DNA from: Gongronella butleri
Taxonomy: Eukaryota > Mucoromycota > Mucoromycetes > Mucorales > Cunninghamellaceae
Reading direction: 5' to 3'
NCBI GenBank assembly: GCA_025201375.1
Contig: JAIWZP010000034.1
Location: forward strand, 296,159-360,158
Length of the DNA stretch: 64,000 nucleotides
Part shown: positions 8,990 through 60,757 of the stretch, piece by piece
How positions within the stretch are numbered: the first letter of the stretch is position 1
Layout of the letters: every line of letters begins with the position of its first letter
Notes under the pieces: generated by a model
Database searches by the model: none
What the model saw: the letters and a program-made list of their open reading frames with translations, nothing else
Told to the model about the DNA's origin: nothing
Translations under genes and position numbers: made by a program

Positions 8990-9745
8990 TTTTTTTTTGT
9001 ATAAATAATGATTAATTTTTAATGAGGCTACATTAATATCATTTGATATATGGGCGAGCAGCGAGGAGGGGCAAAACGAAGCAAAACGAGTAACGGACGG
9101 ACGAGAAACAAGGAAAAAAATCAGCCTTCGGCCATCTCAGTGTCCTGAGCGGTCTTGGGCGCGCGGGGCGGGGACGCGACGCGACATGCGTTGGCTTCAG
9201 CAGGAGTTAGCCAGCCTTACGAGACGAACGAGCGTGCCAGCGGGCCGATGTGGCGGACGCGCGCGTGTGTCAGGGTGCGGAAGATGCCCTTGGCGTGAGG
9301 CACCCGTTCCTCGTGGCTCAAAGCCATGAGGGCCGGGTCTGCCAAGAATCTTGGCTCCGGGGAGTGGTAATCGGCGGCAAAGGGTTGGTCGTGGTGGCGG
9401 AGGGCTTCTTCCAGATAGCCTGATAGCCCTGGTGGACCAAAAGCGCCATTACATTCCTTGCGGGGAACTGGATGTCAATGATGCGGTGCGTCTGGACTCC
9501 AAGCGCACCGAGCTGCGCGCGTGCAGTCTTGAAAGTGAGGCGATGGCGTGTGGGGACGTGCAGGGACGTGAATTCCTTTGCTTCTGAGGGGGGCAGCGAG
9601 AAAGCGAGCTTGGCACTGGCGACTCGTACGGCAGGCGAGGGCGTGTTCTTCTGTTTTGGGCGGCGGCGCGACGCGACGACGGCCCAGGACGCGTCTTTGC
9701 GGGGGTGGATCGGGTTTCGCGGGCGACGGGGCAGGGACAATCGCT
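8990..9745 (-). mobile_element. LINE ORF1-like (gag-like) fragment, left palindrome copy
   Basis: Read on the minus strand this is a decayed open frame of 140 codons (9740-9318) with the stretch QLGALGVQTHRIIDIQFPAR, which resembles ORF1/gag-like proteins of non-LTR elements. It continues in another frame with LARSFVS then an in-frame stop, and ends in a TATACA(A)n tail at 8990. The flanks carry a related duplication of the form TGTTACnGCCnGTGT, so it looks like a 5'-truncated retrocopy. A second, inverted copy lies at 12994-14330. Confidence 0.62.
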
Positions 9746-10990
9746 ATAACACAGGCCGTAACAGCAGAATATAGAACAAAACTAAAATTGCGTGTAACTT
9801 GTGAACGCGTGGTCCGATTTCGATTCTGAGAGCAGTTTTACTAATGCAACGGGGGTCAAAGCATCGAATGGTACAAATTTCGAGGAGCTCTGAGGCGTAC
9901 CAAAAGTTGCACGATGAGACACCGGCAGGCTGCATGGCCATTTTTTATTTTGGAAAAAAGTGTATACAACTCACGTGACTTTTTTGTTCGCATAAAAAAA
10001 ATTAAAACACGTGACTTTTTTTGCACATTAAAACACGTGACAAACAAGCAGAAAAAAAGGGTAAAAAAAAGCGCAAAAAATAAAAAAACTATGAAAAAAA
10101 GTAAATAAAATGAAAAAAAATCACAAAAAAATATTTATTTTCAAATGTTGACTTTAAAAAATGAAAATAAAAAATTGTAAAAAAAAGTCCAAAATTCCAT
10201 GCAAACCAAAGGAACTTAATTTGGAAGACTCCAACCGTACATTTTGGTAACAAAATACTACCATATTAGGAGATTTCGTGCTCTCGCAGATGGATTTTAT
10301 TGACCATATTTGGAAAGTAATTTACTAAATTTCACCAATTTGAAGCCTACTAAAACAGTAATTAATTTATTTCCTCTTTAAAAGGCTTTCAAAATAGGAA
10401 TATTTATTAAACTATTTTCCAAATATGGTCAATAAAATCCATTTGCGAGAACACGAAATCTCCTAATATGGTAGTATTTTGTTACCAAAATGTACGGTTT
10501 GAGTCTTCCAAATTAAGTTCCTTTGGTTTGCATGGAATTTTGGACTTTTTTTTACAATTTTTTATTTTCATTTTTTAAAGTCAACATTTGAAAATAAATA
10601 TTTTTTTGTGATTTTTTTTCATTTTATTTACTTTTTTTCATAGTTTTTTTATTTTTTGCGCTTTTTTTACCCTTTTTTTCTGCTTGTTTGTCACGTGTTT
10701 TAATGTGCAAAAAAAGTCACGTGTTTTAATTTTTTTATGCGAACAAAAAAGTCACGTGAGTTGTATACACTTTTTTCCAAAATAAAAAATGGCCATGCAG
10801 CCTACCGGTGTCTCATCGTGCAACTTTTGGTACGCCTCAGAGCTCCTCGAAATTTGTACCATTCGATGCTTTGACCCCCGTTTCATTAGTAAAACTGCTC
10901 TCAGAATCGAAATCGGACCACGCGTTCACAAGTTACACGCAATTTTAGTTTTGTTCTATATTCTGCTGTTACGGCCTGTGTTGTAGCGAT
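9746..10990. repeat. AT-rich foldback core of the palindrome with repeated CACGTGA boxes
   Basis: Two arms of about 580-610 bp pair across a loop of about 80-90 bp (10325-10415). The arms differ at only a few positions (for example CCGGCAGG on the left against CCTACCGG on the right). Each arm has three copies of an A/T-flanked CACGTGA box (near 9973, 10008 and 10035, mirrored near 10688-10760). There is no convincing coding frame. It could be a non-autonomous foldback transposon or simply the centre of an inverted duplication; because its flanks are also inverted copies of each other, I prefer the latter. Confidence 0.85.
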
Positions 10991-12980
10991 TTTTTTTTTT
11001 TTTTTTTTTTTGTGTGATAATTGATATTTTATTTTTGCTATATGGGCAATATTTCACATAATTTCAGAGGGGTAGGCATGGTGGGGAGGGGGAGAGACAA
11101 AAGAAAGGGGGGTCTCAAGTAGGCAGGGGAGAAAAAGGGAGGGTGTTCAGCCGCTAAGGCCAAGTGACCGCAGTCGGTCTACCCAGGACGTTGCCGTGAG
11201 GGGAGTGCCCTCTCGAGATGCCGCGTAATGGGCCAGCCATACGGTGTATAGCATGTGGGCTATCATCGGGACTTTGTCATCATGGAAGCAAGGGCGCCTG
11301 GCTGGTAGGTAGAGGGTGCTGCGGACGCGGTCTTGCAGGTTGATTGGCGAGAGACCTGACTCTTCACAGAGGCTCCTCCAGAGAGACAGTTTTGCAGGGC
11401 AGGATATGAGCATGTGGTCCGTGTCTTCAATGGCTGCGGCGCAGTGTTCGCATGTTGGGCTGTCGATCACTTGCCACTGGTGTCTGCGCTTCGCCGTGGG
11501 CACCTTGTCGTGGAGTAGGCGCCACCAGACTTCCTTCGCCTTTGGCTGGATGCGGCGTTTCCAAAACCTGCGCCAGCCATGCTCCGTGACGCGATGGATG
11601 ACGTGCGGCTGGCTGTTGCCTTCGACCGGATACAGGTTTGCCTTGCCCTCAGTGGAGAGAGTCTTGCGGATTGTCTTGGCATTGTCGCTCCATGACAGGG
11701 TCGGGTGCTCGTCGATGGTGCGGATCGCCTGAGCCGTTTCCCATAGGCAGGATTGTCGACCAGGTTTACGCTTTACGGGTCCTTGTAGGTAGGCGCGTGC
11801 TCGTGTCGCGAAGGTGTCTTCTAGGTTGTCGTCCTCATGGATGCGCTGCCCGACGAAAGAGCGTAGGGCTAGTGCCTGGTGCCTTGTGTCGATCACGCCT
11901 AGGCCTCCTTCAGTCTTGGGGAGGCATGCCACTTCGTTTTTTAGTCTGGGGCTCTTTCCGAAGGCGAAGTCAATCGCGATGCGCCGAATTTGTTGGAGGC
12001 ATTTGGAGCGGATGGGAGTTACACGCAGTTGGTGCCACATTCGGGAGAGCACGACAGCATTGACAAGCAGTGAGTTGCCCGCGATGGAGAGTCTACGCCA
12101 CGATAGTAATTTACAGTGGGCGTTGATCTTCTGGATCAGTTCGACCTCGTGTCCGATGCGCTGTTCCTTGGACAAGCTGAGCCTGTAGCCAAGGTACACC
12201 AATGGGCTAACTGCGGATTCGTCGTGCCAGGTAGCGTCTTGGTCCCTGGCGATTTTTCTCCAAGATCTGTCCAATTTGCCAGATAAGGGGAAAAAGATCG
12301 TCTTGGCCTTGTTGAATTTGGCGTTGGATGCAGCGCAGTACAGTCTTAGCGTGTTGTCGGTGAGGTGCCAATTGTGTGCTTCCCCCGTGAGCAATAGTAT
12401 GTCGTCGGCGTACGCTAGTGCTTCCGGTCGAAGAGGTCGAGGAGGGACTAGTCTTGTTCGTCGGCCATATCGATCTTTGGGCGGTGGTGTTGCAGGCCAT
12501 ATTTGCTCGGGATTCCTCAGGGCGTTGAGCAGCGGTTCAATGGCCAGGTTGAAGAGGAGAGGTGACAATGGATCGCCTTGGCGTAAGCCCCGTGACTGCC
12601 GGATTGGTGCCGTGAGCCAACCGTTAATGGATGCCAAGATGTTGTTATCAAAATACAGTTCTCGGATGCAGTGGATGAAGCCCTTTGGTAGACCGTAGTG
12701 GGCCATGACCTGGGATAGGTACTCAGGGTGTACCCGGTCATAGGCTTTCTCTTGATCTAGCATCACGCCGATGTGTCGTCGGTGTTCGTTTCCAGCCTGC
12801 GCCATCTCGATCGATGTCTGCACGTACCAACCGTGGTCTGCGATCTGCCTGCCTTCTATAAAACCCTTTTGGTCGGGGTGGATGAGTGGCTGGAGGACGG
12901 TTTGCATGCGACACGCCAAAATCTTGGTGAAGAGTTTGCAGTCGACGTTGAGCATTGCTAGAGGTCGCCAGTTGGCCAAC
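10991..12980 (-). mobile_element. 5'-truncated LINE (reverse transcriptase plus zf-RVT), with target-site duplication
   Basis: The minus strand reads through a non-LTR reverse transcriptase: NWRPLAMLNVDCKLFTKIL, QKGFIEGRQI, the active site YADDILLL, GLRQGDPLSPLLFNLAIEPL, and a C-terminal zinc-binding zf-RVT region (CEHCAAAIEDTDHMLISCP). The endonuclease and the start of the RT are missing, so it is 5'-truncated. A poly(A) tail (T run 10990-11011 on the plus strand) marks the 3' end. A duplication GTGTTGTAGCGATT (10978-10991 and 12981-12994) flanks it. The open frame runs on to 13165 only because it fuses by chance with antisense ORF1 sequence. It is dead as an element but uninterrupted over about 600 codons, so probably young. 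Confidence 0.9.
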
Positions 12981-38342: not shown

Positions 38343-40124
38343 AAATATATTTTGTACATATGATAACATCCAAATAACACACATTGGCTGTCAAACATAC
38401 GATACGGGATAGAAAAGGAGTGTCATGGGGTGTCATGGGGTGTCAAGTAAGAAAAACTGGTTGGAAAACGAACGAAGGCACTGGATCATCAACTTACATC
38501 GCCAATTAACCAGCCGATGGATGGGGATTGACCAATCCGGCTTCCAAAGCGTCAGCAGCAGGGGGGCCTCGTGGTCAATTCTCAAAAAAAAAAAAAAAGG
38601 AATGGAAAGGAAAGGAAAGAAAGCGCGGCCAATGGCCCTGAATTTGTCAAAAAGTGGTCGTAGCGCTTTAAGGTTTTAAGCCTTTTTGTTGCTAATTTTG
38701 CATTGAATGCGATGCAGCTATTTTTGAGCGGGATTGACCATACAGATGGCGAGATGAATGCAAAATAGTGCAAATAGGATGTTTTTGGTTTTTCGAGTCC
38801 AAAAAAAAATCGGGCGGGTTCCCCTTGAGCACTGGGCTAGAGCTTATGCCGTGACCCAAAATTTGCTGGCGGGCAAACAGGCTATAAAAAAAATCTGGAG
38901 GCACAGCAGACTGCCAAAGTCAAAAAACTCCGCTCCTTGGAGTTTAAAAGGTAAATGTGTACGGTTTTGTGCAGTGTAGCGCAATGCTTCAGGTATTGAA
39001 ATGATATCACGCGTCAGTTTCTGTCCGCTGAGATCGAAATATGGACAGATCAAGCGCTTTATTTGTGTGTAAATCATAAACATTTTCGACGCGTTATAAC
39101 CCGCGTCAGATATTGAGTTACACGCACGTGTTCCTAATCAATTATATGCATCTTGAATCCCTCTTGCTAGTGGATACGTCAGCGCGGCTTTTTGGACGCG
39201 TTTTTCCGCGTCATTTGCTCCATGAGTTTGAAACTAAATTCCCAAATTGCTTGCCAACCAGCAGGTTGACCTCGCTTTTTTTTTTGACATTGTCCGTGGG
39301 TTCTCTCCATGCAGATTCTCTTCTGTGCATGTTTGGCCCCTCTCTGAGAAACCGTGTTTTTGGGTTTTGGTTTGGGCCACTCACCGCGTCAAAATTTGGA
39401 TTTACACGAGGCGCGCCCAAATGACAAGCGATACCTGGGCTATGAATGACAGCGTTGTTTGCTCCAGATTGATTCTGTCTGATTCGTCCGCTGCCGACTG
39501 AATCAAAAAAAAATAGGAAGAGCGCGCAAATTGCAAAAAAATAAAATAATATAAAATAAAATAAAATAATAATATACAAAATTGATCATTGTCCAAACTT
39601 GCAAATTTGCGCGGCGTCGCAGCGCATTGTCGCTAGTAGGAAAATTGTAGCATCTGAGAACATGAATGCAAGGTAAAAGTTTCAATGCGATTCGAATCGC
39701 AGGATATCGAGAAAGTTGTCTTTTCTTGAACCGATAATGTGCGGCGTCAAACAAGGTGTCACTTGTTCACCAAGAATTGCCGAGGTTGCAATGCCACAGA
39801 ATAATGGCTATCATCCAACAGAAGCGGCTTGGGCCCTGGAGTGAGTCTCCTTGATGTGAGCAAGTTAAAAAATGAAGAAAATTAAAGGGAAAAAATCGAT
39901 TTGATAGGTGGAAGGTCTGTTTATACATTATTAAAATGGCCGGGAAAAGGCGTGCAATGTTCTGTGTTCACTGTAAAAAAAAAACACGACGATTAGCTGC
40001 CAATCAAATTTCTTGGGATCAGCTTCTATGCTCCCCTCGTCCCCTTTAGGTAACCAGCTTTTTTTTTTTTTTTTGTGCCACTGGCGAGATGTTTACCAAT
40101 AGCCTAAACAGCCGATTGTGAAAT
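38343..40124. other. 1.8-kb intergenic region downstream of the Fanzor gene
   Basis: No protein-coding gene recognised. Contents: three tandem copies of GGGGTGTCAT-type units (about 38420-38444); A/T homopolymers; the 16-bp palindrome TGCGATTCGAATCGCA near 39688; and a stretch ATGCAGCTATTTTTGAGCGG near 38711 that resembles one near 60945. In TnpB/Fanzor loci the guide RNA is usually encoded at or beyond the 3' end of the nuclease gene, so the part nearest 40124 is the place to look for one. I cannot define it by eye. Confidence 0.5.
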
Positions 40125-43100
40125 CTAGGACGACTTTTGTGGTCTCCAATAAGGGGGGTTTGTGGGATCGGGTTCAACGAATTCCTTGGTAAAGACTTGA
40201 GGTCGCTTGGGATTGTCCGGGTCGAGTGCCTTTCGATCTTGACCATAGATGTGGAGCAGCGCAATCGAGCGAATATTGCGGGCGGCGTTGACGTCTCTTT
40301 GCCAAAGGCGCGCGCACCAATTGCAGGAGAGTGCGCCATGCAAATTAAACGTGCTTGTGCCGCAGTCGCGCTTTGTGACATTCGTCAAAGATCGACGACC
40401 GCAAGTGGAACAAGTTTTGCTCGTAAAAGGCTCTGGGACAGCCACGACCATCAGACGCCAGTCGCGCTGGGCTTGAATCAGAGCGCGCTTGAGGAGCGCG
40501 GCTTGGCCAGTCGGTTTTCCTCGCCAATTCATGCGATTGAACGTCGCGTCACCAATACAAATCAGCGGACAAGAATGAAATCGTCGGCGGGGCGAGGCCT
40601 TGCGCCACCTATGATAGAGTTAAAAAAAAAAAAGGTCAATTGGCAAGACTCTCTCGTGACAGGGTCGCTTTGCTCGTGTGCTCACTTGATGTCGCTCTGG
40701 CTGTCGTGTATTTGTCGAGTAGCGTTGTGTGGATTGTATTTTTTACCGCCGTGTGCCAGGATATTGACCATCTCGTTGACGGCCAGCTGCTTGCCTCTAT
40801 AATTTAAGAATCGCAGCTCTTGATGCCGGAGCCCATAGTACGCTAGAAGCCGAGGTAGCACACGGAGGACACCTTGGACATGCAGGGCCATTTTTTCGGG
40901 GCGTGTGGTCCTGGCGGTGGGCAATTCGGATTCCAAGGTGGTGATGGTGACGCCCTGCTCGTCGGCGGAATTCTCTTTCCATTGGCGTAGGTGCTGGTTG
41001 GTACGAGTAATTCCAGACAGATGATTGTATTCCTGCGCAGAAAATCGACGCATTTGATGAGCCTCGCTCGTGGTAAAGAGACGGCGAGAGCGCTCGGGAA
41101 GAACCGACGCAGATCTGGGGCGTGCTGGAGACTTGGGATCGCGCATGTTGCCTATTTTTGTCTCTGGCGCTTCGGCCGACCATCTGATTTTCCGGCCAGC
41201 GGATGGTGGCAGCGGCGGCAATGTGGGCCGCGAGGTGCCATAAATGCCGCTCTGGTGGTTGGACCCGTCGACGGCTACAAATATCTCGGAGACGCCCGGA
41301 TCGACGCCCCATACATGGCATTGTTGTAGATCTTGAGGATCAATGTCGTCCAGTGTAAGCAGTGGTGGAGCCTTGCCAGTAGTGGGAACACGGTAAAAGA
41401 CCGACGTGGAGAAGGCATCGGTCATGAGCGCATTGTCAAACACGGCGCGCTTCGGCCTAGCGGGGTCGAGAATAAAGAAATGAGGTTAGGTCACCCTCTT
41501 TCTTTCTTTTTCAAAAGATTCATCTTACGGTCGGATTCGTGTCCAATCAAATAGGCGATGGAAGACGAGATGCATCTCGCCGTCATCCGGGGCGCTTTCC
41601 TTGCAGTCCTTCTGGTATTTGGATAAGCCGCTGAATTTCAAGAGTCGCATGATGGATCGGTGCTGCAGGTGGATATATCGGAGGCGGAATGATGGGGCCG
41701 GGACAAGAGCAAAGAGGCGGATGGCGGGGCGGGCGATGATCACTTCCGGCTTGAATGTTTTGTCGTTGATCAGCTGGCGGGTATTTTTGAAGAGGGAATC
41801 GATGGCGTCTGTGGATGGTTGGGTCAATTTGTTTTTGTAGGGCAGCTTCTCCACGTCGAGCGTCGCTTTCTTGGTGTTGATGAGTTTCATGAGGACGCGT
41901 GTCAGACGCGTTCGCTGTCTGTAATTGAGGTATTGGAAGTCTGGCACCTGATCTTTGAGTTTGCTGCGCGTCCACGCGAATGTGACCTCCTCGGCGGTCT
42001 CGGCTGGCTTGGCTGCGTCTTGTTCGTTCCATTCCTCAATTTCTCGAAGCGCGTCGTGTAATACTTTGAGGAAAAAATGCGGGTATTTTGTGATGGCAGC
42101 TGTAGTGATCGAGAGGCGCTCTGACACGTGCATTTCCGACATGCCCATTGATCCGACCGTGCTTGGAGACATTGCATCCGAGATTTCCACGTCAGGAATG
42201 GGATCCACGCTCATTGCGTCCACGCTGTCGGCGTCATGGATGGGATCGATCATCATTTCCGAATCGACGAGGCCAGATTGCGCGTCCGAGGCCAACAAGA
42301 GGAAGCTGGCGACCATTGCATCGGCGTTGGCAGCTGTCGAGGCGGCGGCATTAGCAGCTGCATTGGCGGCGGCGGCTGCATCTATGGCGGCGGCATGGAT
42401 CTGGGCGGCGGCCATGGCATCGGCATGCGCTGTGGCTTGACGTTGCGCCGCTCTGTTGCACGTGTTGGCGAGCATCACCGCAAAATTGATCGCGTTTTGG
42501 TGGGTCTCGGCGGCGGATGCAGCCAATTCTTGCGCCTCTACATCCAAAGGCGGGTCTGTATGCTCTGCCATTGCCTGAGTAGCAGCAGCTGCAGCAGCCA
42601 AGGCCGGGATGGTTGCAGAATGTGACATGTATGCGTGGCTGGCGGCATTGTGCGCAGCAATCGCGTGTTGCGCCGCGGTATGCTTTCTGGCGGCGACGTC
42701 GCCAGCAGCTTGGCATGCAGCAGCTTGTGCATTGGCAACCTCTCGCGCCTCATTGGCCACAGCATGCGCAATAGTGGCCCGATCCACGGCAGCTTGGTGC
42801 TGAGCAGCAATCACGCCCGGTGCCTGCTCTTGGATGGCCAGGGCGGCGACGGCAGCATCATCGGCAGCAGCAGCTGCTGCTGCTTGTTGTTGGGCGCCAG
42901 TCGACGATTCGGCGACAACCACAGGCGACGAATTGGGCTCCATGGGCGTCCGAGCGGATCGCGCAAATGTCAGGCCGGCAAGAAGAGCATCACGGTTCGC
43001 CAATGATGTTTGTCGCGCTCGTTCATTCGCCTCGGTGCGCTTGCGCGTCGCTTCGGCAATCTCGAACTTCTCCGTCACCACATAAGAATACACACACAGC

Positions 43101-44596
43101 CATTTGGACTCCGCATGCTGCGCCAGCGCGTCGGCATCCGCCGCCAGCTTCTCCTTGATTGCATCCTTCATCTTGTATTTGGGAAGTTCTGCCGGGAACT
43201 TGTCATCCTTGGCGGCCTTATCATACGCATACATTGCATAGCCACGACATTGATAGGGCTTGAGATCCTAAAAAAAAAATCAAGAAAAAAAAAAAAAAAG
43301 GTCAGGTCGCTCGCTCTCTCGTTCTCTCTCTCTCCCTTTATCCTTACTGGATGATCCACCGAAAACTTGGCCGCAAGGTATCGCATGAAGAATTCCTCAA
43401 AGTTCTCGACGACATTGTTCTTCATCATGACGGCAAGCTGGACGGCCGTCTGGCTGGTGATGTCCGTGAAGCCATTGGCCTTGTTGTTGGCGCCAATGGG
43501 TTTTGACACGATGATGGACGGGTGGGCTTGTTTGAATCGATCAAATGCTTCCAAAAAGGCCATGCGCGTGTCATCGTCCGAAAAGAGAGCCTTGTTGGAC
43601 GCCTGGTCACCAAGGATGAGCTGGAACACCGCCATGAAAAAATCTTGGGTGAAAATGGCGCGTGGGACGTGATGACCTGCGTCAAGGACATCCACCACGT
43701 ATTGCTGGGTAAATAGCATGGCATGGATGACGAGTTTGCGGTTGAAGGAAGCAACTTGGTGTACAGCGTCCATAAAGGTGTTCTTGTCGTTCTCCGGGAT
43801 ATCGTCGTGTAAGAGAGTGCGTAAACCGTGCTTGATCACCATCATTCGCGTCTTGCCCAAGCGCTCCTTGGTCTTGACCGATTTTCTCGCCATGTACTCA
43901 GGGCACCCTTTGTTCGTCGGTCGCGAGTGAGTGTAGGCAAGCTCCAAGCGTGCCTTTGCCTCGGCACGCAGGCGCACATAGTCGCCATTGTCTTGCTCCA
44001 TGCGCGCTAGGGCCGCCACGGGGTCGCTGGTGAAATCAGGTTGTGCCTCAAGCATCGCCGTCGCTTCGCCGTCCAGTCGATCGGCGGCCGCCTTGCACCG
44101 CGGGCACGGGTTCTTCACGGCAGCCGAGCTGGCCTTTGTTGACGCGGCGAATTCCTCTTTGGCGCTTCGTTTGTCTTTCTTTTCGTCGCTCTTTTGTCGT
44201 CGTTTCGATGTCATGCGACCCTTTCCTTTTTTTGCGCGACGGCCTATTAAAAAAAAAAACAAAAAAAAAAAAAAATAGGCAGTGAGAAGGACTGATCAGG
44301 GCCAACCCTTTTCCCTAGCTCTGCTTACTGTTGTCTACGACAGGCTGTTGTTGTTGTTGCTGTTGCTGTTGCTGCACAGCGCCCTCCGTGTCGTCATTGT
44401 CTTGCGCCGTCGTCACGACATGCGTGTTTTGCTGCCCAGGCCCTGTCGCACCAGAATCCGTCACGGCTTCAGCCTCTACAGGGGGCGCCGCCTCCACGGC
44501 TGCTTCCCCCGCTTCCGTCACCTCTTGGCCCACGTTCTCCTGGTCCGCAGCTATCTTGGCAGCAAGTTTTTCCTTGGCAATGGCAAAACGCGGCAT
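40125..44596 (-). CDS. Fanzor (TnpB-like RNA-guided nuclease), very long form with alanine-rich insert
   Basis: Five exons (44596-44329, 44243-43348, 43267-41529, 41456-40686, 40608-40125) sum to 1386 codons in perfect phase. Seen: poly-Gln (residues about 72-82); a basic stretch after RRAKKGKGR likely serving as NLS; CPRC near 135; a helical SFNRKLVIHAMLFTQQYVV block near 255 typical of Fanzor N-terminal lobes; a roughly 200-residue Ala/Gln/His/Asp-rich insert (about 510-710); RuvC-I VWGVDPG (Asp near 1020); ICIGDATF near 1245; VPEPFTSKTCSTCG with the shifted Fanzor Glu near 1284; a zinc finger of two CxxC pairs (1291-1294 and 1320-1323); RuvC-III WQRDVNAARNI (Asp near 1330). Known: Fanzors are RNA-guided DNA nucleases. 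Inferred: this one is catalytically intact. No transposase is visible nearby. Confidence 0.9.
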
Positions 44597-44911
44597 GGAA
44601 ACAAAGAGGGAAAAAGAGGAAGCGAGAGGAAGCGAGAGGATGCAGAAAAAGAAGCTGGAAAGAAAAGCAAAAAAAAAAAAAAAAAAAAAAAAAAGCCCGC
44701 TCCTTTTTTTTTTTTCTGTCTTCCTTTGACCGCGTCTTCTTTTCCAACCCCGCCCATCCCATCCATGACCGCCAAATGCAAGCGCCTCGGATGACTAAAG
44801 GCATCAGCTTCAATGTACCACCGATGCTGTGCATTATGTAAAAAGGTCCGCTAGCTAGGTGGCGACCGATAAAATCGTTTTTTATCGTTATGTGGCTGTT
44901 GACCTGCTAAT
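44597..44911. other. Upstream region of the Fanzor gene
   Basis: About 300 bp with an A28-like run (about 44670-44695) and T runs. No coding frame has support. It presumably contains the Fanzor promoter and 5' UTR. Confidence 0.5.
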
Positions 44912-45177
44912 TAAGCAAAACGAGGATAGAGCATGATTTTTTAGCTTGCAAAGGCATCATTCTTGACATGTATCCGCAAAATCTGCCTTGCTTTTGGTGC
45001 AGGCTGGCAGCAGCCGTCATCTCGACAGCCGTCAATCCACCAACTATGTAACTTTTTCCTCGCAGCATTCCCGTGCCATGCACAGATCGCACCAAAAACA
45101 AGGCAGATTTTGCGGATACATGTCAAGAATGATGCCTTTGCAAGCTAAAAAATCATGCTCTATCCTCCGTTTGCTTA
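44912..45177. mobile_element. 266-bp foldback element (MITE-like)
   Basis: Two nearly perfect inverted arms of about 90 bp: 44912-45000 begins TAAGCAAAACGAGGATAGAG, and 45085-45177 ends as its reverse complement. The loop is about 85 bp. No coding capacity. Flanks are T/A-rich and no unambiguous duplication can be chosen. It sits about 315 bp upstream of the Fanzor start and 360 bp upstream of the next gene. Confidence 0.88.
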
Positions 45178-45536
45178 TTTAATAAAAGAACTTGTCAGAC
45201 ATCATTTTATGCAAGTAAAAAAAAGGACGCGAGAAGACTCAGACATAGGGGCATCGACAATTTTTCACGGCCATACTTGACTCCCACTGACCCAATTAAA
45301 AAAAATCGTAATGCACATTTTTTGTGATCCCGCAGCCACATTAGGATTTCTGCAAAAGGTGACCAATCAACGAACTAATACCCTAATTTAGGAAGCTCTC
45401 TTTGCTTGTTTTATTAATGTGGTTGCTGTGCTGCAAAATGACGGAGATTGAAACCAGCAGGCAGGCAGAAGATTTTGTAGACTCGGGACGCGATTGAACG
45501 TTTTTGTTCCCTTTTCTCTGCTTCTTTTTTTTTTTT
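45178..45536. other. Promoter region of the ZNFX1-like gene
   Basis: About 360 bp without recognised features apart from short A and T runs, including T12 just before the start codon. Confidence 0.55.
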
Positions 45537-51823: not shown

Positions 51824-53035
51824 AATTTCATGCTCTGATTTCAAGCGCCCCTTTTTGTTGTCAACTGATTGAAAACCCAGCGCAGACTATTACCGGTATT
51901 TCATGTCAGGTTCCAGCCTGACAAGCTTGCCCACATTTATTTTTTCGTTTCTGCGCCGCCTCGCCTTGGTCCTCGCCGCTCGCACACGTTCCTCGCACTC
52001 GCCCCTCGCTCGTTGTCGCAGCACGTCCGCATCCACCTTGTGCTTGGCCCGCACGCGTCCTTTTTATACGCGCTCGTTTCAAAACACGCATCGCAACGCA
52101 TCGCGACGCGTCCAACGCGTGAATTGGCCCGGCTCCCGCCTCGCCCGATCTTCACGCGCATCCGCATTCATGTCTTGCTTGGTCACCAGCATTGTCCAAC
52201 AAGTCCAGTCATCGTCACCTCGTCTTTGGCCGCGCGACACGCGCCATCCTTCATCATGCACATCTAATTAAACCCCCTTTCCCTTTGAGCTTTTCCCTTT
52301 GTCCCCTATCATCCCCTTATTCCGATTAATAACACACGTTTTCTTTCCTTCTTGTTCTTCCTTGCCAATAAACCCGCTTGCTCTTTCCCCAGCACTTCCT
52401 TTGGTGGGCCTCTTTTGGCATGGCCCTTGCCTTCACCTTGGCTTAGTCACCCTCTTGGCCGCCTATGCCCTCCCTGCATGGCCGTTTGGACGCATCCTCG
52501 CCTTGAAGCTACAGTAAGGAGCATCAAGTAGGATCATCACATTTCACGCGTTTCTCCCGATGAGCCTGACCTTACAGTATTATGGCTCCAAATTTAGATC
52601 AGTGGATACTCGACATACCGTATGGTATCATACGCTTTTTTCGTTTTTCGTTTTTCAGGGTGAGATCATCCGCATTGAAGAACCGCCCCTTGAAGCCTTG
52701 ATCTCGTATCTCTCTCTAGTCATGTACAGTACAGTACAGTACTTTTCAATTTTTATTTTTTTTCTACTCGTGAACCCGTCTACCGGTACATTATTGACAC
52801 AGCAGCCCATCGATCTCAATTCTTCCTGTCTAATAATGCTGCCACTGTCATGACAATATGATACAGTAATTTAAAAATATTTACAGTAACATCGATGTTC
52901 TCGGCAACTGATACTGTATGATAATAGAACGACACACAGGACACAGCATTTTTAACATGTCGAAAGCACTTGTTTCATTTTTCATCTCTATCGAATGAGA
53001 CCAGATGACCAGTTTTTTCATCGATGGATGGCTAA
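51824..53035. other. 1.2-kb repeat-like intergenic region left of the Ty3 element
   Basis: No gene recognised. 52270-52440 is pyrimidine-rich with CCAATAAACCCG and resembles a retroelement LTR tail of another family (weak). 52570-52930 is rich in TACAGTA/TACTGTA, including GTACAGTACAGTACAGTAC near 52728-52746. A stretch near 52801-52865 recurs near 61971-62035. Confidence 0.5.
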
Positions 53036-53534
53036 TGTTAGGCCCCCCAGATCCGCAGCACAGATTGCAGATCACTCTATTTTATTTTTCTTTTCTTACG
53101 CGCTCGCTGCGCCATCTCTGATCTAGATGACGCTCCTCGCGCTTCCATAGACCTTTCTAAACGCCCATCTTTCCATCTACCTTTCCAAACGCCCACATTC
53201 CATCTTGTACGTTCCAAAAGGTCAAAACGCCAATCATGACCCATACAAAACGCCCATCTACAATTGCCAAGACGCGATGGACCATTCCAGATCGAAACAT
53301 CCAAATAGACGCGTTTTGCCGCAGGCTTCATATTAGAATATTCCCTTAATTTCAAAACTATAAAAGGACACCCGCTTTGCGGATGTCCTTCCCCTTTTTC
53401 CCTTACCGTTCTCATCTGTTCTTCCCAATTGCTCCCCCTCTTGCTTAATCAATAAACCATATTCATGTCGCCACAAATCAAGGAAGAGACGATCGATGTT
53501 GCTACCAACGGTATGGCCGACCCCGGCCATGACA
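53036..53534 (+). repeat. 5' LTR with TATA box, TSS-proximal hairpin and AATAAA
   Basis: Starts TGTTAGG. A TATAAAA box is at 53359-53365, directly followed by an inverted repeat GGACACCCGC-TTT-GCGGATGTCC (53366-53388), and AATAAA at 53451-53456. The start codon of the leading ORF (53465) is within the LTR. Confidence 0.93.
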
Positions 53535-54043
53535 GCATGAGAACGGTAAACTTCAATGCTGGCTCGACCCCGTTCCACCATTGGACCACGACATACGAAA
53601 CCGACGAGGACGAGACCTCCACCGACTCGGAGGACGCGGCAATGGACCAAGGTGACGATAGCAAGGACCAACACGAAGACTTGTCCGCGTTTGACACGAC
53701 GACGATTGCGCCTCAGTCCGTCATTGACGACGACACGCTTCGTTTCCGCACCTACATAGTGGACATGTTTGTCCACGGCCGGGTCAGCCTGCCAGCATTC
53801 ACGGCGTACGAAATCGCCCTGGAAACGGTCCAACTGATCAGCGACCGTTTGGAAGAAGTCGCCCAACGCCTGGGCAGCGACTCTGCCTCGCCCGACGAAA
53901 TTGAGCGCCTTGGGCTCGGGGCGCGAGCCTACAAAGGCATCTCGGACGCCGCTCTGACGGAGCTCGCCAAGGCGGCCCAATGGGCATTGAACGATATCGA
54001 CGCCCACGCGCGCGCCTGCAGCCGCCCCACTTGGACGGCCTAG
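53465..54043 (+). CDS. Extra leading ORF of the Ty3 element, 192 aa, unknown
   Basis: The frame starts inside the LTR U5-like part and runs into the internal region. Residues 40-80 are very acidic (ETDEDETSTDSEDAAMDQGD); residues 90-190 look helical (AYEIALETVQLISDRLEEVA, GISDAALTELAKAAQWALND). There is no zinc knuckle and no recognised domain. A gag-pol start lies 1 kb downstream, behind a second TATAAAA at 54433-54439, so the two frames could be expressed from separate starts. The 3' LTR repeats the first 23 codons. It could be an envelope-like or accessory ORF or a captured gene; I cannot tell. Confidence 0.6.
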   Translation: MSPQIKEETIDVATNGMADPGHDSMRTVNFNAGSTPFHHWTTTYETDEDETSTDSEDAAMDQGDDSKDQHEDLSAFDTTTIAPQSVIDDDTLRFRTYIVDMFVHGRVSLPAFTAYEIALETVQLISDRLEEVAQRLGSDSASPDEIERLGLGARAYKGISDAALTELAKAAQWALNDIDAHARACSRPTWTA

Positions 54044-55090
54044 TCGGTTCACCCCGCAAGCAGCAAAAAAAAAAAAAAAAATCACGCCACGACGACTAGC
54101 CAGCTGCAGCCACGCACGAGTATCATACTGTAGAACAATGCAAACATTTTTTCCCCTTGTTGTCCCAATTTTGCAATTTACGTATTAAATTGCGCCCACC
54201 GCATCGTTGTTCCAAAGAAAAATCTGATAAGACCTCATCCAAGTTACGTTACACCAGGAGATCGCGATCAATTCCTTCCAAAATGAAAAATCTGATAAAA
54301 TCCTCCACCACTGAAAGAAAAAAGGATCTTTCCACTCGATCTGCCGCAGTGATCTGCCGCAGTTGCCGCAGTTGCCTGTCGCAGTTGCCAGCAATTCCAC
54401 GTAGAAACATCTAAAACCACGGCACCAAAAGATATAAAAGGAGACACCCAAGATCAAAAAAAGAAATCTCCAAGCAACGAATCTCCAACGCAATCAAGCT
54501 CCAAGACAACCAATTCAATTCAAGACAATCTCCAACTTTCCAAGACAAAATAGCAGCATCAATTCCAAGAATCAAGACAATCAAATCAACATCAAGACAA
54601 CAAAACGCCCAATTTTCCTCGTGTTCGTGTATCCCCAGCCTATAAGTGTATAGGTTCCGTTTTTTCCTTAGTTCCACGTTCCAAGACAGCTCCCAAGCTC
54701 GTGCCTCCTTGTTTCCCCTGCAGCGTTTCTGCACGCTTCCTAGTTTTTTTATTTTTCCTGTATCTTTAGCACGGACGCTAAAAGACCACGTTTCCACCCA
54801 CGCATTTTACCCCTGAATTTACCAAACGCCCACACACGCACACCGCCAGGTTACACCACCGATTCAAACTCCACTTACACAGACAAAACAAATCCCACTG
54901 CCCTGAGACAAAAAAAAAAAAAAAAGGACAACCCCCTTTCTACCCCACTTACCCTAGAGACACACAACGACAAAATATTCACACCCAAGCGACCCACCGC
55001 ACCAAAAACATTGTAACACACCCAAAAAGAACCAAATAACCTGCTTTTCCTTTTTTCCTCTAGCACAACCTTACCCACATCCAATTCAAC
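54044..55090 (+). promoter_or_regulatory. Untranslated leader of the Ty3 element with a second TATA box
   Basis: One kb without a supported frame: A runs, then TATAAAA at 54433-54439 in the context GATATAAAAGGAGACACCC, similar to the LTR context CTATAAAAGGACACCC. A/C-rich sequence continues to the gag ATG at 55091. Confidence 0.45.
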
Positions 55091-58000
55091 ATGATGGAAG
55101 ATACCAACATGGACCACCCCTTGCGCAATGATGACGACTCGACGTCACCACGAATTGACATGCACGGCGAGATTCTTTCACTTGCAAACCAAGTCGCGGA
55201 AGTTAGAAACTTCCTAAATCATCATCTTGTCACCCCCCAGACCATACAAGAAATCGTAGATCGCACTAGCACCGACGTAGGCAACATGTTTGCACAACAA
55301 AACAACGCGTCTGCCGCCTCCGCGGCCCCTGCTCGCTCAAAAAAGGAACCAAGAATGGCCGATCCCGACTTTTTCTATGGTGATCGACGCCACGCTAAGA
55401 ATTTCATCATAAAATGCACACTGGTTTTCAGCTCACAGCCCGAGAGATACGCCACAGACGCTCAAAAAGTTTGCTATTCCATGAGTTTGATGAGAGGAAT
55501 CGCTTTTTCATGGTGTACCACGCTTTTGAACAAAAAAGACTCCAACGTGCTGAGCGATTTTGAGACTTTCACGGTTGAATTTTTCCGCACGTTCGGCGAC
55601 CCTGATGTCAAATCCAATTCTCTTAACAAAATGATGAACATGCGTCAACGTGGACGCTCAGCCACGTCATACGCGACAGATTTCCGTCAAGTTGCAGCAG
55701 AGTTAGATTGGAACGACTCGGCTTTTGCCGGTGCCTACTACTCTGGCCTTGATTCTGCACTAAAAGATGAGCTTTGCACACGCGATCGACCTGAGACTTT
55801 AGATGAATTGATCGAGTTGACCATAAAACTGGACAATCGGCTTTTTGAACGCAAACAAGAACGCCACTACAAAGCCTCACGTAGCAACCCAATTCAACCA
55901 CGCTCCCATTATCCTCAAAGATCATCAAATTTCTCTCGAAACAACCATTCAAGCACACGTTCATCTTACACAGGTCCAATGCCAATGGATCTCGATGCCA
56001 CTCATTTTCAACGAAACAACGATTACCAAAACAACAACAGATCGTTCAGATCCAACTCTGAAGGCTCCAAGATCACGCCCAGTGAACGTGAGTATCGCAT
56101 GAAAAATAATTTGTGCCTATATTGTAGCAAAAAAGGACACCGACGGGTCAATTGCCCTGTACGACCCAATACCACAACACCCAATGCGTACAAAAATGCA
56201 TCCGCAACCACGCAACCGCATAAAAAACGCGTTTCGCCCACTCACAATCACACGGTGGCTGGCGCCACCATGGCAAACTCTTATTTTGCGATCGGTGCAA
56301 CCGCACCCACCACAAACGATGCAACACCAAAACCCGATGACGACGATTCCGACAGCTGGTACGAAGCACCCAGCGATATCGACACCGAAATCGACGAAAT
56401 TTCGGAAACAGAGGACGAAACGCATGAAGCGGGAGATGAAACACACGAAACACGCTCAGTCCATGACGAAACAACGCGCACAGACGCGTCCGATGACGAG
56501 CAATCTGACATCGCGTGTTCCACACCGCACCCTAGCAACTCAAATTCGCCATACATTGAAGCGGTCCCCGACGAAGATGAAAGCGATGTACCCGATGACT
56601 CGCATTTTCTTGAAAATCCATCAGCTGACGACGCACAAAACGACTTTACCGGTGCTGTGTGTCACCTCACCCTGCCGATCAACATATCCTTTGGCGACAC
56701 AAGTTTCAATGTAACTGCCTTGTGCGACACAGGCGCACATTCTTGTTTTTTATCCCTAGATCTCGTAAAACGATTCAACATCCCAATTGATGAATTGCAA
56801 GAACCGATCCCAATTTCGACCATCGACGGTGTCATGGTCGACAGAAACAAAGTGAAGTTCAAAACAGCTCCAATTTCCCTCACCGTGGAAAATCACCCCA
56901 CCGAAAAAGCAGCTTTCAATGTTCTGCCCAAAATGATCTACCCTGTCGTGCTCGGCACCCCATGGTGCAAAGCGCACGAACCACTGGTATTTTCATGGTC
57001 AAAAAACACGGTGCTCACGCAAGACACCGATTGGCACATGGTCAAAAAAGAAATTGTCGATCCAGATTCAGAGGATTCATCACACCTAATCGAATTTTAC
57101 GCGAATCCGGCTGAATGGAGCGCAAATTCCACCAACGCAGCGCAACCCGACGCGCAAAACACCATCACCACCACCACGCAAAAAATCACGGATGACAATT
57201 TTGACGTTTCGTCATTTTTTGGCAATTTTGACGACGACGATCCAAACACATCGGATGACGTCGATCTAAATTTGCTACCCAAAAAATACCACCGATTTCG
57301 GGACGTGTTTAGCAAAGCCAAAGCTAACATTTTACCAGCGCATCGCAAATACGATTTGGAAATCCCGCTGAAACCAAACACGACACCACCTTTTGGCGCG
57401 ATTTACAACTTGTCAGTCGACGAACAAAAGGAACTAAAAGAGTTCGTCGAAGAAAACCTCGCCCGTGGTTTCATCCGACATAGCAAGAGTCCAGCTGGCG
57501 CACCTGTACTTTTTGTCAAAAAGAAAGATGGCAGCCTCCGCCTCTGTGTAGATTATCGAGGATTGAACGCCATCACGATCAAAAATCGCTACCCATTGCC
57601 CCTAATCGGCTCACTTATGGAGCAGATGGCTAAAGCCCGGATTTTTTCTAAAGCAGATTTGAGGGGAGCTTACAATCTGCTGCGCGTAAAAGAAGAGGAT
57701 TGCTGGAAGACGGCGTTCCGCACGAGATACGGCCACTTTGAAACATTAGTGGTTCCTTATGGCCTAAGTGGAGCTCCCGGTGCCTTCATGCATATGGTCA
57801 ATGACATCCTACACGACGCGCTAGATGTTTACGCAGTCGCGTACCTCGATGACGTGCTCATCTTCTCACCAGATCAAGAGTCTCACGACAAACACGTCGC
57901 TGCAATTCTGCAAAAATTCAGAGAAAATGGCCTGTATGCAAAGATCGAAAAATGTGAATTTGATCGAGATCGAATCGAGTTTCTCGGTCACATCATCTCA

Positions 58001-59917
58001 CACAAAGGCCTCGAAATGGATCCCGCCAAGATCAAGGCAATTCAAGACTGGAAAGCACCAACTTGCGTGAAAGATGTGCAAACTTTCCTGGGATTCAGCA
58101 ACTATTACAAAAAATTCATTCCCGACTATTCAAAAATAGCGGTACCGCTCACACGACTCCTCCAAACAAAAGGAAAAAATGCACCAAAATCATTTTATTG
58201 GGACGAATCGGCACAGCAAGCATTTGACGAATTGAAAAAACGATTTTGCTCAGCACCGATCATACAACACCCAAACCCAGAAAAACCATTTTTTCTAGAG
58301 ACCGATGCAAGTGATTTTGCCATTGGCGCTGTATTGTACCAAACTGGCAACGACGACGATCAATTACACCCCGTGGCATACTACTCGCGAAAATTTAAAC
58401 CGCCCGAAATGAATTATCCAATTTACGACAAAGAATTGGCAGCTGTGATCTCAGCACTTGACCAATTCCGCCACTTGCTCATGTCAACAAACGAGCCTGT
58501 CACCATCTACACGGATCATAAAAATTTGGAGTACTTCACTACGACGCGACGCTTAAATCGACGACAAGCGCGCTGGTCCCTATTTTTGGCAGATTTTAAT
58601 TTCAAAATCACATACCGCCCGGGACAACTCCAGTCACAACCAGACGCACTCTCTCGACAGCCAGCGTTGAAGCCTAAAGAGGGAGATAATGAATACGACA
58701 TGCAAAATCAGACCCTACTCAAACCAAGCCATTTTGCATTTATGGCGACAAGCGACGAAAAAAATGACCTAATCGCGAAAATCAAAGATGCATATGCAGC
58801 CGACGCGCTCGCAAAGTCATTCTTTGCTAAAACAGACGAAGAAAAAACCAAAACCCCTTTTACAATTCACAATGGACTCATTTACACCAAGAAAAACAAG
58901 CAATTGTACGCACCAGAGCCTGTTAGGTTAGAAATCCTGAAGCAACGACACGATGCAAAATTAGCAGGACACTTTGGAATCAAAAAGACAACAGAGCTTT
59001 GCAAAAGAGCGTACTGGTGGCCAAATATTCGCAGGTTTGTCACAGATTACATCAAAACATGCAATGTTTGCTCGCGTGCAAAGACATCACATAGAGCGAA
59101 ATCAGGTGAGCTTCAACCGCTACCTGTACCAGACAAACCCTGGCAAGCCATTTCAATGGATTTCATCACCGATCTACCTGAATCGCAAGGTTTCGACAGC
59201 ATTTTCGTCATTGTAGACAGATTGACAAAAATGGCGCACTTTGTACCTTGTTTGAAGACAACCACCGCAAATCAAGCATCCAACCTTTACATCAACAACG
59301 TGCTCAGGCTACACGGCGTCCCTGAAAATATAGTTTCAGATCGCGGTCCACAATTCACCTCGAGATTCTGGAAATCCTTTAATCAAGCGCTTGGCACGAC
59401 TTTATCGCTCTCATCCGGACACCACCCCGAAACTGATGGTCAAACAGAAATCATTAATTCAGTCCTTGAGCAATACTTACGATGCTACACGAATTACAAT
59501 CAAAACGACTGGGTATCATTATTACCACTAGCAGAATTTGCATACAATAATTCAAATCACTCGAGCACAAAGGCAACCCCTTTCTTTGCCAACTATGGAT
59601 ACCACCCCACAATGGATCTCTTTCTCGACGCACCAATCGAAAACGAAACAGCGCTCGACAAAGCAAAAATAATGGAAGAAATTACAAATCAGCTCAGAAA
59701 AAACATGTCTGACGCACAAGAAAATTACAAAAAATTCGCAGATCGACACAGATCACCTGCACCAAATTATACTATTGGCGACCAAGTGTGGCTAAGGACC
59801 ACAAACCTCCGCACCACTCGCCCTTGCAGAAAATTGGATCACAAAAAATTAGGACCATTCCAATTGTCGAAAAAATCAACAACGTGGCTTTCCGCATCAA
59901 ACTGCCCCCACACATGA
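55091..59917 (+). CDS. Ty3/gypsy Gag-Pol polyprotein
   Basis: A single open frame of 1608 codons. In order: gag core (FFYGDRRHAKNFIIKCTLVF, about residue 95); zinc knuckle CLYCSKKGHRRVNC (about 341, CX2CX4HX4C); an acidic linker; aspartic protease LCDTGAHSCFL (about 545); reverse transcriptase VDYRGLNAITIKNRYPLPL with YLDDVLIF (about 917); RNase H LETDASDFAIGAVL; integrase zinc domain HFGIKKTTELCKRAYWWPNI (about 1295); integrase core with Asp in MDFITDLP (about 1356), DRGPQFTS (about 1416) and the Glu in ETDGQTEIINS (about 1449). Gag and Pol are fused in one frame. The frame runs off its proper end at about 59865, where a one-base shift occurs. All catalytic motifs are intact before that. Confidence 0.95.
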   Translation: MMEDTNMDHPLRNDDDSTSPRIDMHGEILSLANQVAEVRNFLNHHLVTPQTIQEIVDRTSTDVGNMFAQQNNASAASAAPARSKKEPRMADPDFFYGDRRHAKNFIIKCTLVFSSQPERYATDAQKVCYSMSLMRGIAFSWCTTLLNKKDSNVLSDFETFTVEFFRTFGDPDVKSNSLNKMMNMRQRGRSATSYATDFRQVAAELDWNDSAFAGAYYSGLDSALKDELCTRDRPETLDELIELTIKLDNRLFERKQERHYKASRSNPIQPRSHYPQRSSNFSRNNHSSTRSSYTGPMPMDLDATHFQRNNDYQNNNRSFRSNSEGSKITPSEREYRMKNNLCLYCSKKGHRRVNCPVRPNTTTPNAYKNASATTQPHKKRVSPTHNHTVAGATMANSYFAIGATAPTTNDATPKPDDDDSDSWYEAPSDIDTEIDEISETEDETHEAGDETHETRSVHDETTRTDASDDEQSDIACSTPHPSNSNSPYIEAVPDEDESDVPDDSHFLENPSADDAQNDFTGAVCHLTLPINISFGDTSFNVTALCDTGAHSCFLSLDLVKRFNIPIDELQEPIPISTIDGVMVDRNKVKFKTAPISLTVENHPTEKAAFNVLPKMIYPVVLGTPWCKAHEPLVFSWSKNTVLTQDTDWHMVKKEIVDPDSEDSSHLIEFYANPAEWSANSTNAAQPDAQNTITTTTQKITDDNFDVSSFFGNFDDDDPNTSDDVDLNLLPKKYHRFRDVFSKAKANILPAHRKYDLEIPLKPNTTPPFGAIYNLSVDEQKELKEFVEENLARGFIRHSKSPAGAPVLFVKKKDGSLRLCVDYRGLNAITIKNRYPLPLIGSLMEQMAKARIFSKADLRGAYNLLRVKEEDCWKTAFRTRYGHFETLVVPYGLSGAPGAFMHMVNDILHDALDVYAVAYLDDVLIFSPDQESHDKHVAAILQKFRENGLYAKIEKCEFDRDRIEFLGHIISHKGLEMDPAKIKAIQDWKAPTCVKDVQTFLGFSNYYKKFIPDYSKIAVPLTRLLQTKGKNAPKSFYWDESAQQAFDELKKRFCSAPIIQHPNPEKPFFLETDASDFAIGAVLYQTGNDDDQLHPVAYYSRKFKPPEMNYPIYDKELAAVISALDQFRHLLMSTNEPVTIYTDHKNLEYFTTTRRLNRRQARWSLFLADFNFKITYRPGQLQSQPDALSRQPALKPKEGDNEYDMQNQTLLKPSHFAFMATSDEKNDLIAKIKDAYAADALAKSFFAKTDEEKTKTPFTIHNGLIYTKKNKQLYAPEPVRLEILKQRHDAKLAGHFGIKKTTELCKRAYWWPNIRRFVTDYIKTCNVCSRAKTSHRAKSGELQPLPVPDKPWQAISMDFITDLPESQGFDSIFVIVDRLTKMAHFVPCLKTTTANQASNLYINNVLRLHGVPENIVSDRGPQFTSRFWKSFNQALGTTLSLSSGHHPETDGQTEIINSVLEQYLRCYTNYNQNDWVSLLPLAEFAYNNSNHSSTKATPFFANYGYHPTMDLFLDAPIENETALDKAKIMEEITNQLRKNMSDAQENYKKFADRHRSPAPNYTIGDQVWLRTTNLRTTRPCRKLDHKKLGPFQLSKKSTTWLSASNCPHT

Positions 59918-60246
59918 AGGCCCACAACGTGTTTCACGTCAGTCTCCTCGAACCCGCCACAAAAAAACGCGCTTTCGACGCGTCACCAGGCGCCACCAGA
60001 CCCCGTTTACCTTGAAGACGACGTTCCAGAATATGTAATCGAATCAGTACTTGACCATAGGAAACGACGCGGTCAAATCCAATATCTGGTGCAATGGCAA
60101 GGCTTTGGACCCGAGGACAACACATGGGAACCCATCTCGTCTTTTGCACAAGACAGTGACACCATCAACGAGCCCTTGGAACGTTATAAAAGGACACACC
60201 AACTTCTTTCTCCCCGACGACGACCTCGGCGCGTACGACGCGCCTA
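59866..60246 (+). pseudogene. Frameshifted end of Pol: integrase C-terminus and chromodomain
   Basis: From about 59866 to about 59980 the homology continues in another frame (IVEKINNVAFRIKLPPHMKA, HNVFHVSLLEPA), then returns to the original frame for DVPEYVIESVLDHRK and QYLVQWQGFGPEDNTWEPIS, a clear chromodomain, ending at a TAG at 60244-60246. So two opposite one-base shifts bracket about 115 bp; the second is near an A7 run. Chromodomains of chromoviruses direct integration to marked chromatin. Confidence 0.85.
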
Positions 60247-60258
60247 GGAGGGAGGTGA

Positions 60259-60757
60259 TGTTAGGCCCCCCAGATCCGCAGCACAGATTGCAGATCACTC
60301 TATTTTATTTTTCTTTTCTTACGCGCTCGCTGCGCCATCTCTGATCTAGATGACGCTCCTCGCGCTTCCATAGACCTTTCTAAACGCCCATCTTTCCATC
60401 TACCTTTCCAAACGCCCACATTCCATCTTGTACGTTCCAAAAGGTCAAAACGCCAATCATGACCCATACAAAACGCCCATCTACAATTGCCAAGACGCGA
60501 TGGACCATTCCAGATCGAAACATCCAAATAGACGCGTTTTGCCGCAGGCTTCATATTAGAATATTCCCTTAATTTCAAAACTATAAAAGGACACCCGCTT
60601 TGCGGATGTCCTTCCCCTTTTTCCCTTACCGTTCTCATCTGTTCTTCCCAATTGCTCCCCCTCTTGCTTACTCAATAAACCATATTCATGTCGCCACAAA
60701 TCAAGGAAGAGACGATCGATGTTGCTACCAACGGTATGGCCGACCCCGGCCATGACA
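60259..60757 (+). repeat. 3' LTR
   Basis: A copy of the 5' LTR, preceded by the polypurine tract at 60246-60258. It ends at CATGACA (60757), after which the sequence differs from the internal region. Confidence 0.93.

Follow-up and report, generated by a model that had tools for sequence, protein, structure and literature searches.

Fanzors are eukaryotic relatives of CRISPR nucleases. To our knowledge, it is an open question how a Fanzor locus yields both the message for its nuclease and a guide RNA when the cell subjects transcripts to splicing and polyadenylation. It is raised again by a locus of the mucoralean fungus Gongronella butleri, which lies in a stretch of 64,000 nucleotides referred to here as the window (GenBank assembly GCA_025201375.1, contig JAIWZP010000034.1, positions 296,159 to 360,158 of the forward strand). 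It is well supported that the locus holds an intact, giant Fanzor1 gene carried by a mobile unit, and the 3' terminus of this unit likely doubles as a 3' splice site, to judge by signals that recur among its copies. Under the explanation favored here, to which we assign a probability of roughly 0.6, the terminus would act as the last 3' splice site of the unit and trap a terminal exon of the host, and the guide RNA would come from the unspliced transcript. A terminus that also serves as acceptor in splicing would offer a concrete way for protein and guide RNA to arise from one locus in such a cell. Its role in supplying both RNAs is put forward as a testable proposal on sequence grounds.

The Fanzor1 gene (40125..44596, minus strand) runs from ATG to stop through five exons and four GT-AG introns, placed from the reading frame and not from transcripts, and encodes 1385 residues with no internal stop. 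A second copy, L024, has matching splice places and an intact frame of 1383 residues. The preliminary description, made from the DNA alone, had read the same five-exon gene, with an N-terminal poly-Gln, a basic stretch, and the RuvC and zinc-finger residues in the last two exons. All of these are present: the basic stretch (residues about 91-118) follows the poly-Gln (75-84), D1020 falls in exon 4, and E1284, T1287-S1288, the four Cys (C1291, C1294, C1320, and C1323), and R1329-D1330 fall in exon 5. The unusual length also holds, within a limit: some Fanzor1s attain about 800 residues (PMC10711439), but the nearest named proteins, P0001 and P0002 from Hesseltinella vesiculosa, have 1246 and 1180. 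The range of Fanzor1 is extended to nearly 1400 residues, with a large insert tolerated.

The membership in the Fanzor/TnpB family proposed earlier agrees with profile searches, which place the protein inside it, nearest to GtFz1 and SpuFz1. The TNB zinc finger PF07282, a domain shared with TnpB and Cas12f, scores 35.8 bits (cut-off 26.3). A profile of six sequences, the window protein included, ranked GtFz1 (E 6.5e-8) and SpuFz1 (1.5e-6) first among solved structures, followed by TranC (3.9e-6); the best entry named 'Transposase' reached 7.7e-4. Individual stretches are weaker (GtFz1, 0.024, 8.8, and 0.03; SpuFz1, 1.2e-5 and 4.2), and the alignment of the profile motif vpEfrtskvC with VPEHYTSQEC of GtFz1 (stretch 0.03) and LDEYKTSSVC of SpuFz1 (4.2) is weak for both when taken alone. 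The shifted catalytic Glu recognized earlier in VPEPFTSK is E1284, which takes part in this alignment. In an alignment of six proteins (A4), E1284 (within VPEPFTSKTC), D1020, the four Cys, and D1330 are all invariant. The motif of Bao and Jurka, D-X(125,275)-[TS][TS]-X-X-C4 zinc finger-X(5,50)-RD, is shared with TnpB (PMC3627910) and is found here with 266 residues between D1020 and T1287-S1288 and five between C1323 and R1329-D1330. When the structural comparison was run on a metagenomic relative, its predicted fold gave good matches to Fanzor1 structures only; the model is of that relative and not of the window protein, and derives from 8 sequences with a mean predicted local distance difference test score of 57 and a poorly modelled RuvC. 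NCBIfam, searched with the six relatives of set A3 only, returned TnpB families below the cut-off, and none of 82 pattern matches in IMG/VR was confirmed by tblastn as a viral relative. Assignment to Fanzor1 is thus supported by the Pfam match, the structure-profile search, and the predicted fold of a relative.

The copy L024 lies on another contig (C68:134945-139837) and is 97% identical over 39969-44890, with unrelated flanks. The preliminary description was right about the gene, but the unit is larger than the gene, and its ends and terminal signals had not been part of that account. Sharp breaks between copies in groups A (two copies), B (three), C (two), and E (two) fix the unit ends. An intact gene with spliceosomal introns would also suit a host gene that had been domesticated and stays at one site; the 97% copy on another contig, with its sharp ends and unrelated flanks, makes this highly improbable. 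The unit extends only about 300 and 155 bp past the ends of the gene, which leaves no space for a transposase. The termini are short and A-rich; read inward, the 3' one is CACTG followed by an A-run in eight of nine copies, and the 5' one is variable (CACAG in four, CACTT in two, TAACG in two, CACTG in one). CACTA (EnSpm) elements have termini of the form CACT[AG]... at both ends and a 3-bp target site duplication. Matching termini of this type were rejected for the Fanzor unit, since CACTG stands at eight of the nine 3' ends and at one 5' end. A 3-bp target-duplication match occurs in four of the nine copies (L011, L016, L018, and L019), neither of group A. A MuDr-type duplication was rejected as well, no 9-bp repeat being shared by the flanks of the nine copies when compared by eye. 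The genome, searched over 33.0 Mb in 110 contigs, has the CACTA transposase domain PF02992 at nine places and MULE transposase domains at five. Within 9-kb neighborhoods of two PF02992 loci, a search for ends matching the Fanzor unit gave five candidate pairs, none with a 3-bp duplication, and neither locus could be tied to the unit as an autonomous partner.

PF07282 is found at 20 places in this genome, 19 of them above the cut-off, and 17 of the 20 neighborhoods, the window's own counted, match the window protein (tblastn, 1e-3), all but L026-L028. By DNA comparison these loci form groups A to E (Table 1) and singles, and a tree unites groups A, B, and C with a support of 0.98. A genome search with 38700-45500 of the window, in which the best 40 of 1378 candidates were scored and most of these were taken by another repeat, returned the C68 copy and two matches of about 68% to the N-terminal part of group C genes. 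Ghost elements, that is, ends without a gene, were not found among the same 40, a weak test. The 3' module of group B found only its own three copies (three of three candidates scored), and its 5' end found one extra place, L040, a truncated group C copy. The pattern CACTGCAAAAAAA was tried as an element finder and dropped: it gave 67 matches against 6 for the reversed pattern, and by eye a pair at Fanzor spacing exists only at L014. The other matches are read as ordinary intron ends.

Past their stop codons, the copies carry a donor, a branch-like CTNAC, a T-run, and a YAG near the place where similarity between copies ends. The fair count for YAG comes from the nine copies with ends fixed by comparison: in all nine, similarity ends 0-5 nt past a YAG with a T-run (0 nt in group C, 2 in A, 3 in E, and 5 in B), and in eight the YAG is followed by TG. 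The alignment of L009 with L013 also ends no more than 2 bases from CTAGTG. At the 5' end, read outward, YAG occurs in one of the nine (L014), and therefore a terminal repeat alone does not explain it. For the wider set, 16 modules were extracted from the 17 loci (L012 left out) and 15 tested (L020 had no clear end). GTAAG or GTAAA lies within 75 nt of the stop in 15 of 15 and GTAAG in 13, as against 2.3-32% (GTAA[GA]) and 0.8-8.2% (GTAAG) per copy in dinucleotide shuffles. CTNAC stands near the module end in 13 of 15 (shuffles 1.9-11.6%), and YAG at the end in 13 of 15, partly by construction, because the ends of group D, L010, L022, and L025 were picked by motif. The donor follows the stop by 17-42 nt in 12 copies, by 66 and 68 nt in two, and by 1 nt in L025, and stands 61 to 135 nt before the module end; the internal introns that were solved measure 61 to 94 nt, and for intron 2 of L013 modelling led to no good solution. 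The scores of all 17 terminal donors fall within the range of 21 hand-listed internal donors, and that of the weakest is reached by 3.1% of 2285 GTs in five loci. This terminal pattern spans lineages that are deeply diverged in the tree, and the 3' module as a whole is poorly conserved (mean column identity 47%, 12 sequences).

The unit carries the open reading frame of a predicted Fanzor1 RNA-guided nuclease, its stop, and a splice donor, and in the proposed explanation its own 3' terminus would be the last 3' splice site. Splicing of a read-through transcript would connect the Fanzor coding exons to the host flank. We infer that the last intron has the transposon terminus as its acceptor and that the mRNA receives its final exon from this flank. 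The element would trap a host terminal exon, perhaps with its poly(A) signal, in a way comparable to poly(A)-trap vectors, which capture the terminal exon and poly(A) signal of a host gene. The unspliced transcript would retain everything between the stop codon and the terminus, together with the flank, the region where SpuFz1 makes its guide RNA. The same transcript would then end up either as message or as guide RNA. If true, this would explain the expression of an element without a poly(A) signal of its own wherever it is inserted.

No AATAAA was seen between stop and terminus in groups A, B, and C. On the same strand, within 100 nt downstream, it occurs in 5 of 13 copies, all among the seven of these groups (control 6.6%; opposite strand 1 of 13), a count devised after the sequences had been seen and made without L012, L020, L022, and L025, which have no firm end. 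In L009, L013, L018, L019, and L020, an AATAAA stands 1-3 nt before the donor. A terminal-exon trap would account jointly for the missing AATAAA in groups A, B, and C, for its presence in the flanks of five of their copies, and for its place before the donor in the five copies just named. An AATAAA just before the donor also offers a possible choice between polyadenylation and splicing. Host reading frames in the same direction follow L014, L015, L016, and L019 and resemble DnaJ, TCP-1, CTNNBL, and RPC82; Pfam matched 4 of the 10 downstream frames tested, with the DnaJ and RPC82-like ones below its cut-off. The frame behind L017 is presumably SPT4-like. A preferred orientation towards host genes was considered and dropped, several copies lying between divergent reading frames.

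Besides the way in which the YAG and AATAAA counts were made, several observations weigh against splicing into a host exon at the terminus. L022 ends in CTG and L025 in AAAG, neither a YAG. The copies share ancestry, and 15 of 15 does not stand for 15 independent events. A T-run with CAG comes partly free from an A-rich repeat that starts with CACTG. The terminal donor of the window copy, GTAAAC, is the weakest of the 17 (7.12, with internal donors from 4.94), its sister L024 having GTAAGC, and the window copy may use the terminal site less readily than L024 does. In addition, 150 nt of its flank hold no AATAAA, and several copies stand in front of host genes, where trapping may bring in the 5' end of a host gene and not a poly(A) exon.

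The module could alternatively be only a guide-RNA scaffold and terminal repeat, with GTAAG, CTNAC, and YAG kept for reading by Fanzor or a transposase and no splicing involved. In SpuFz1, a 75-nt scaffold located between the stop codon and the right repeat forms the guide RNA together with 14-15 nt of flanking sequence (PMC10432273). The 15 modules with an end measure 99-186 nt from stop to end, and their length and position fit this arrangement. Many copies also share ATTGG and a GGGGAGCATAG-like motif within the module. However, RNAalifold predicts 0 pairs for the module alignment, none of 20 folds of 10 modules falls below a z of -2 (lowest -1.95), and in the copies with fixed ends YAG is kept at the 3' terminus and not at the 5' terminus; we regard a module of scaffold and repeat alone as doubtful. 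Nor does a scaffold overlapping the coding end emerge: in four pairs taken from different groups, fourfold-site identity does not rise as exon 5 nears its 3' end (two within-group pairs were too alike to judge). Neither RNA folding nor coding-end constraint gave a result that confirms a scaffold in the 3' module or places it elsewhere.

If the layout of SpuFz1 holds, splicing would remove much of the scaffold, and guide RNA would consequently require unspliced RNA. This leads to an elaboration of the terminal-exon trap. Bacterial IStrons combine TnpB with a self-splicing group I intron whose end is the transposon end beside the guide stretch. The units described here might, tentatively, be their spliceosomal counterparts in a eukaryote, the 3' terminus being a working splice site that overlaps the guide scaffold, so that terminal splicing would destroy the guide RNA and the competition between the two outcomes would tune nuclease activity. 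The coincidence of the terminal intron with the expected place of the scaffold speaks for this analogy, and the AATAAA next to the donor in five copies could be a further switch. We nevertheless think it improbable as a full account, as the guide RNA is here only putative, the intron would make up only part of the element, and the 10 Rfam matches up to E 1 over 39500-45400 include no intron family of group I or II.

The signals might also be leftovers in a decaying passenger, an ordinary Fanzor1 whose insert has merely expanded. Only two copies of group A were found, the donor of the window copy is the weaker one, and group C has the truncated relative L040. Selection or recent activity had been suspected from the open frames, and comparison of the two group A copies, both intact, bears it out: 46.5 changes at 975.7 synonymous sites and 44.5 at 3173.3 non-synonymous sites give a ratio of non-synonymous to synonymous rates (dN/dS) of 0.29, which supports purifying selection on this pair. 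Since the terminal pattern, too, is kept across deeply separated lineages, decay appears unlikely. By region, dN/dS is 0.19 in the C-terminal half (12.5 non-synonymous and 20.5 synonymous changes) and 0.44 in the insert (11 and 8), a contrast from small counts with no statistical test behind it.

An Ala-rich insert had been described between the N-terminal lobe and RuvC-I. The insert is real (33% Ala over residues about 500-775), but it does not adjoin RuvC-I, as it lies inside the N-terminal part, with RuvC-I at 1017. It is flanked by conserved blocks, one ending near residue 490-510 and the next starting near 740-778. Its presence in related copies holds in part. The window copy, L024, L011, L014, L015, and L016 all carry it in frame, and a gap of equal length with about 95% identity suggests that L017 has it too; L009, L010, and L013 have short linkers only. 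A4 includes five relatives from beyond this genome; the insert is missing from four of them, and the low-complexity stretch of P0001 is shorter. By these alignments the insert is a trait of the clade of groups A, B, and C, best read as a tolerated clade-specific spacer with no part in catalysis. P0001 has a different large low-complexity insert with repeated AIAIA motifs at residues about 790-1050, after RuvC-I.

Table 1. Features of the Fanzor1 unit in window coordinates, and groups of copies in the genome
Feature	Position or members	Strand	Details
Whole mobile unit	39969..44890	-	4922 bp; from copy comparison
5' terminus	44871..44890	-	TAACGATAAAAAACGATTTT; weakly like the 3' terminus
Exon 1	44329..44596	-	N-terminal extension, poly-Gln
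Intron 1	44244..44328	-	85 nt, GTAAGC...TAG
Exon 2	43348..44243	-	basic stretch, start of N-terminal lobe
Intron 2	43268..43347	-	80 nt, GT-AG
Exon 3	41529..43267	-	rest of N-terminal lobe, Ala-rich insert, second conserved block
Ala-rich insert	42107..42934	-	residues about 500-775; located by way of the exon coordinates
Intron 3	41457..41528	-	72 nt, GT-AG
Exon 4	40686..41456	-	RuvC-I; D1020 codon 41300-41302
Intron 4	40609..40685	-	77 nt, GT-AG
Exon 5	40125..40608	-	E1284 codon 40431-40433, C4 zinc finger, D1330 codon 40293-40295, stop
Putative terminal intron	39971..40096	-	126 nt; donor GTAAAC 40096-40091; branch-like CTAAT 39995-39991; T-run; CAG acceptor ends at 39971
3' terminus	39969..39988	-	reverse complement CACTGTAAAAAAAAAACACG
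Host flank directly after unit	39949..39968	-	guide stretch expected under a SpuFz1-like mechanism
Group A	window, L024		97% DNA identity
Group B	L011, L014, L017		about 95% DNA identity
Group C	L015, L016		90% DNA identity
Group D	L009, L013, L021		65-92% DNA identity
Group E	L018, L019		98% DNA identity

Other repeats lie in the window. A 274-bp fold-back at 44908-45181, 17 bp from the 5' end of the unit, has 93-nt arms that are 96% complementary around 88 nt, and no other full copy was among the best 40 of 1378 candidates scored. Beyond the 3' end, a repeat of about 370 bp (38704-39073) has at least 36 further copies in the genome at 76-82% identity. Direct repeats at 53035-53447 and 60258-60670, identical over 413 nt, stand 7223 bp apart within negative GC skew, and the region 53035-60670 looks like a young long terminal repeat retrotransposon. 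A nested palindrome at 9739-10991 has 268-nt arms that are 98% complementary and inner 313-nt arms that are 93% complementary, with 1 nt between the inner arms.

The terminal splice-type signals of a Fanzor unit are new here. No title on Fanzor introns or splice sites was among the titles listed in a literature search, and no paper on Fanzor in Mucoromycota was found, both weak tests of absence from print. The word 'intron' does not occur in the main text of PMC10432273, PMC3627910, PMC10711439, and PMC11423790. SpuFz1 and GtFz1 resemble the window protein in their RuvC with shifted Glu, C4 zinc finger, and helical N-terminal lobe, but their modelled chains have 590-609 residues as against 1385. 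SpuFz1 is a single open reading frame in a 2.1-kb locus (PMC10432273), whereas five exons fill a 4.92-kb unit here. The mucoralean elements ROr-4, PBl-3, and MCi-4 of Bao and Jurka are fungal Fanzor1 elements without a transposase, like the window unit, but they have MuDr-type repeats and 9-bp target duplications (PMC3627910), as against 3-bp matches in four of nine copies of the window family. PpFz1 of Parasitella parasitica, also of the Mucorales, has an FRI domain, which its authors report from Parasitella and Rhizopus alone (PMC11423790); it was not among the 13 sequences matched by the window profile at E 0.1. Against residues 780-1385 of the window protein, P0001 shows 33% identity over 70% of that length and P0002 31% over 71%; both are likewise long with low-complexity inserts, the largest one of P0001 following RuvC-I and that of the window protein lying in the N-terminal part. 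The proposed use of the terminus, if true, would link RNA-guided transposon nucleases to the spliceosome. In the window unit, as in IStrons, an intron end would meet the transposon end beside the guide stretch; unlike IStrons, the window family has signals of spliceosomal type, an intron limited to the last 61-135 nt, and a eukaryotic host.

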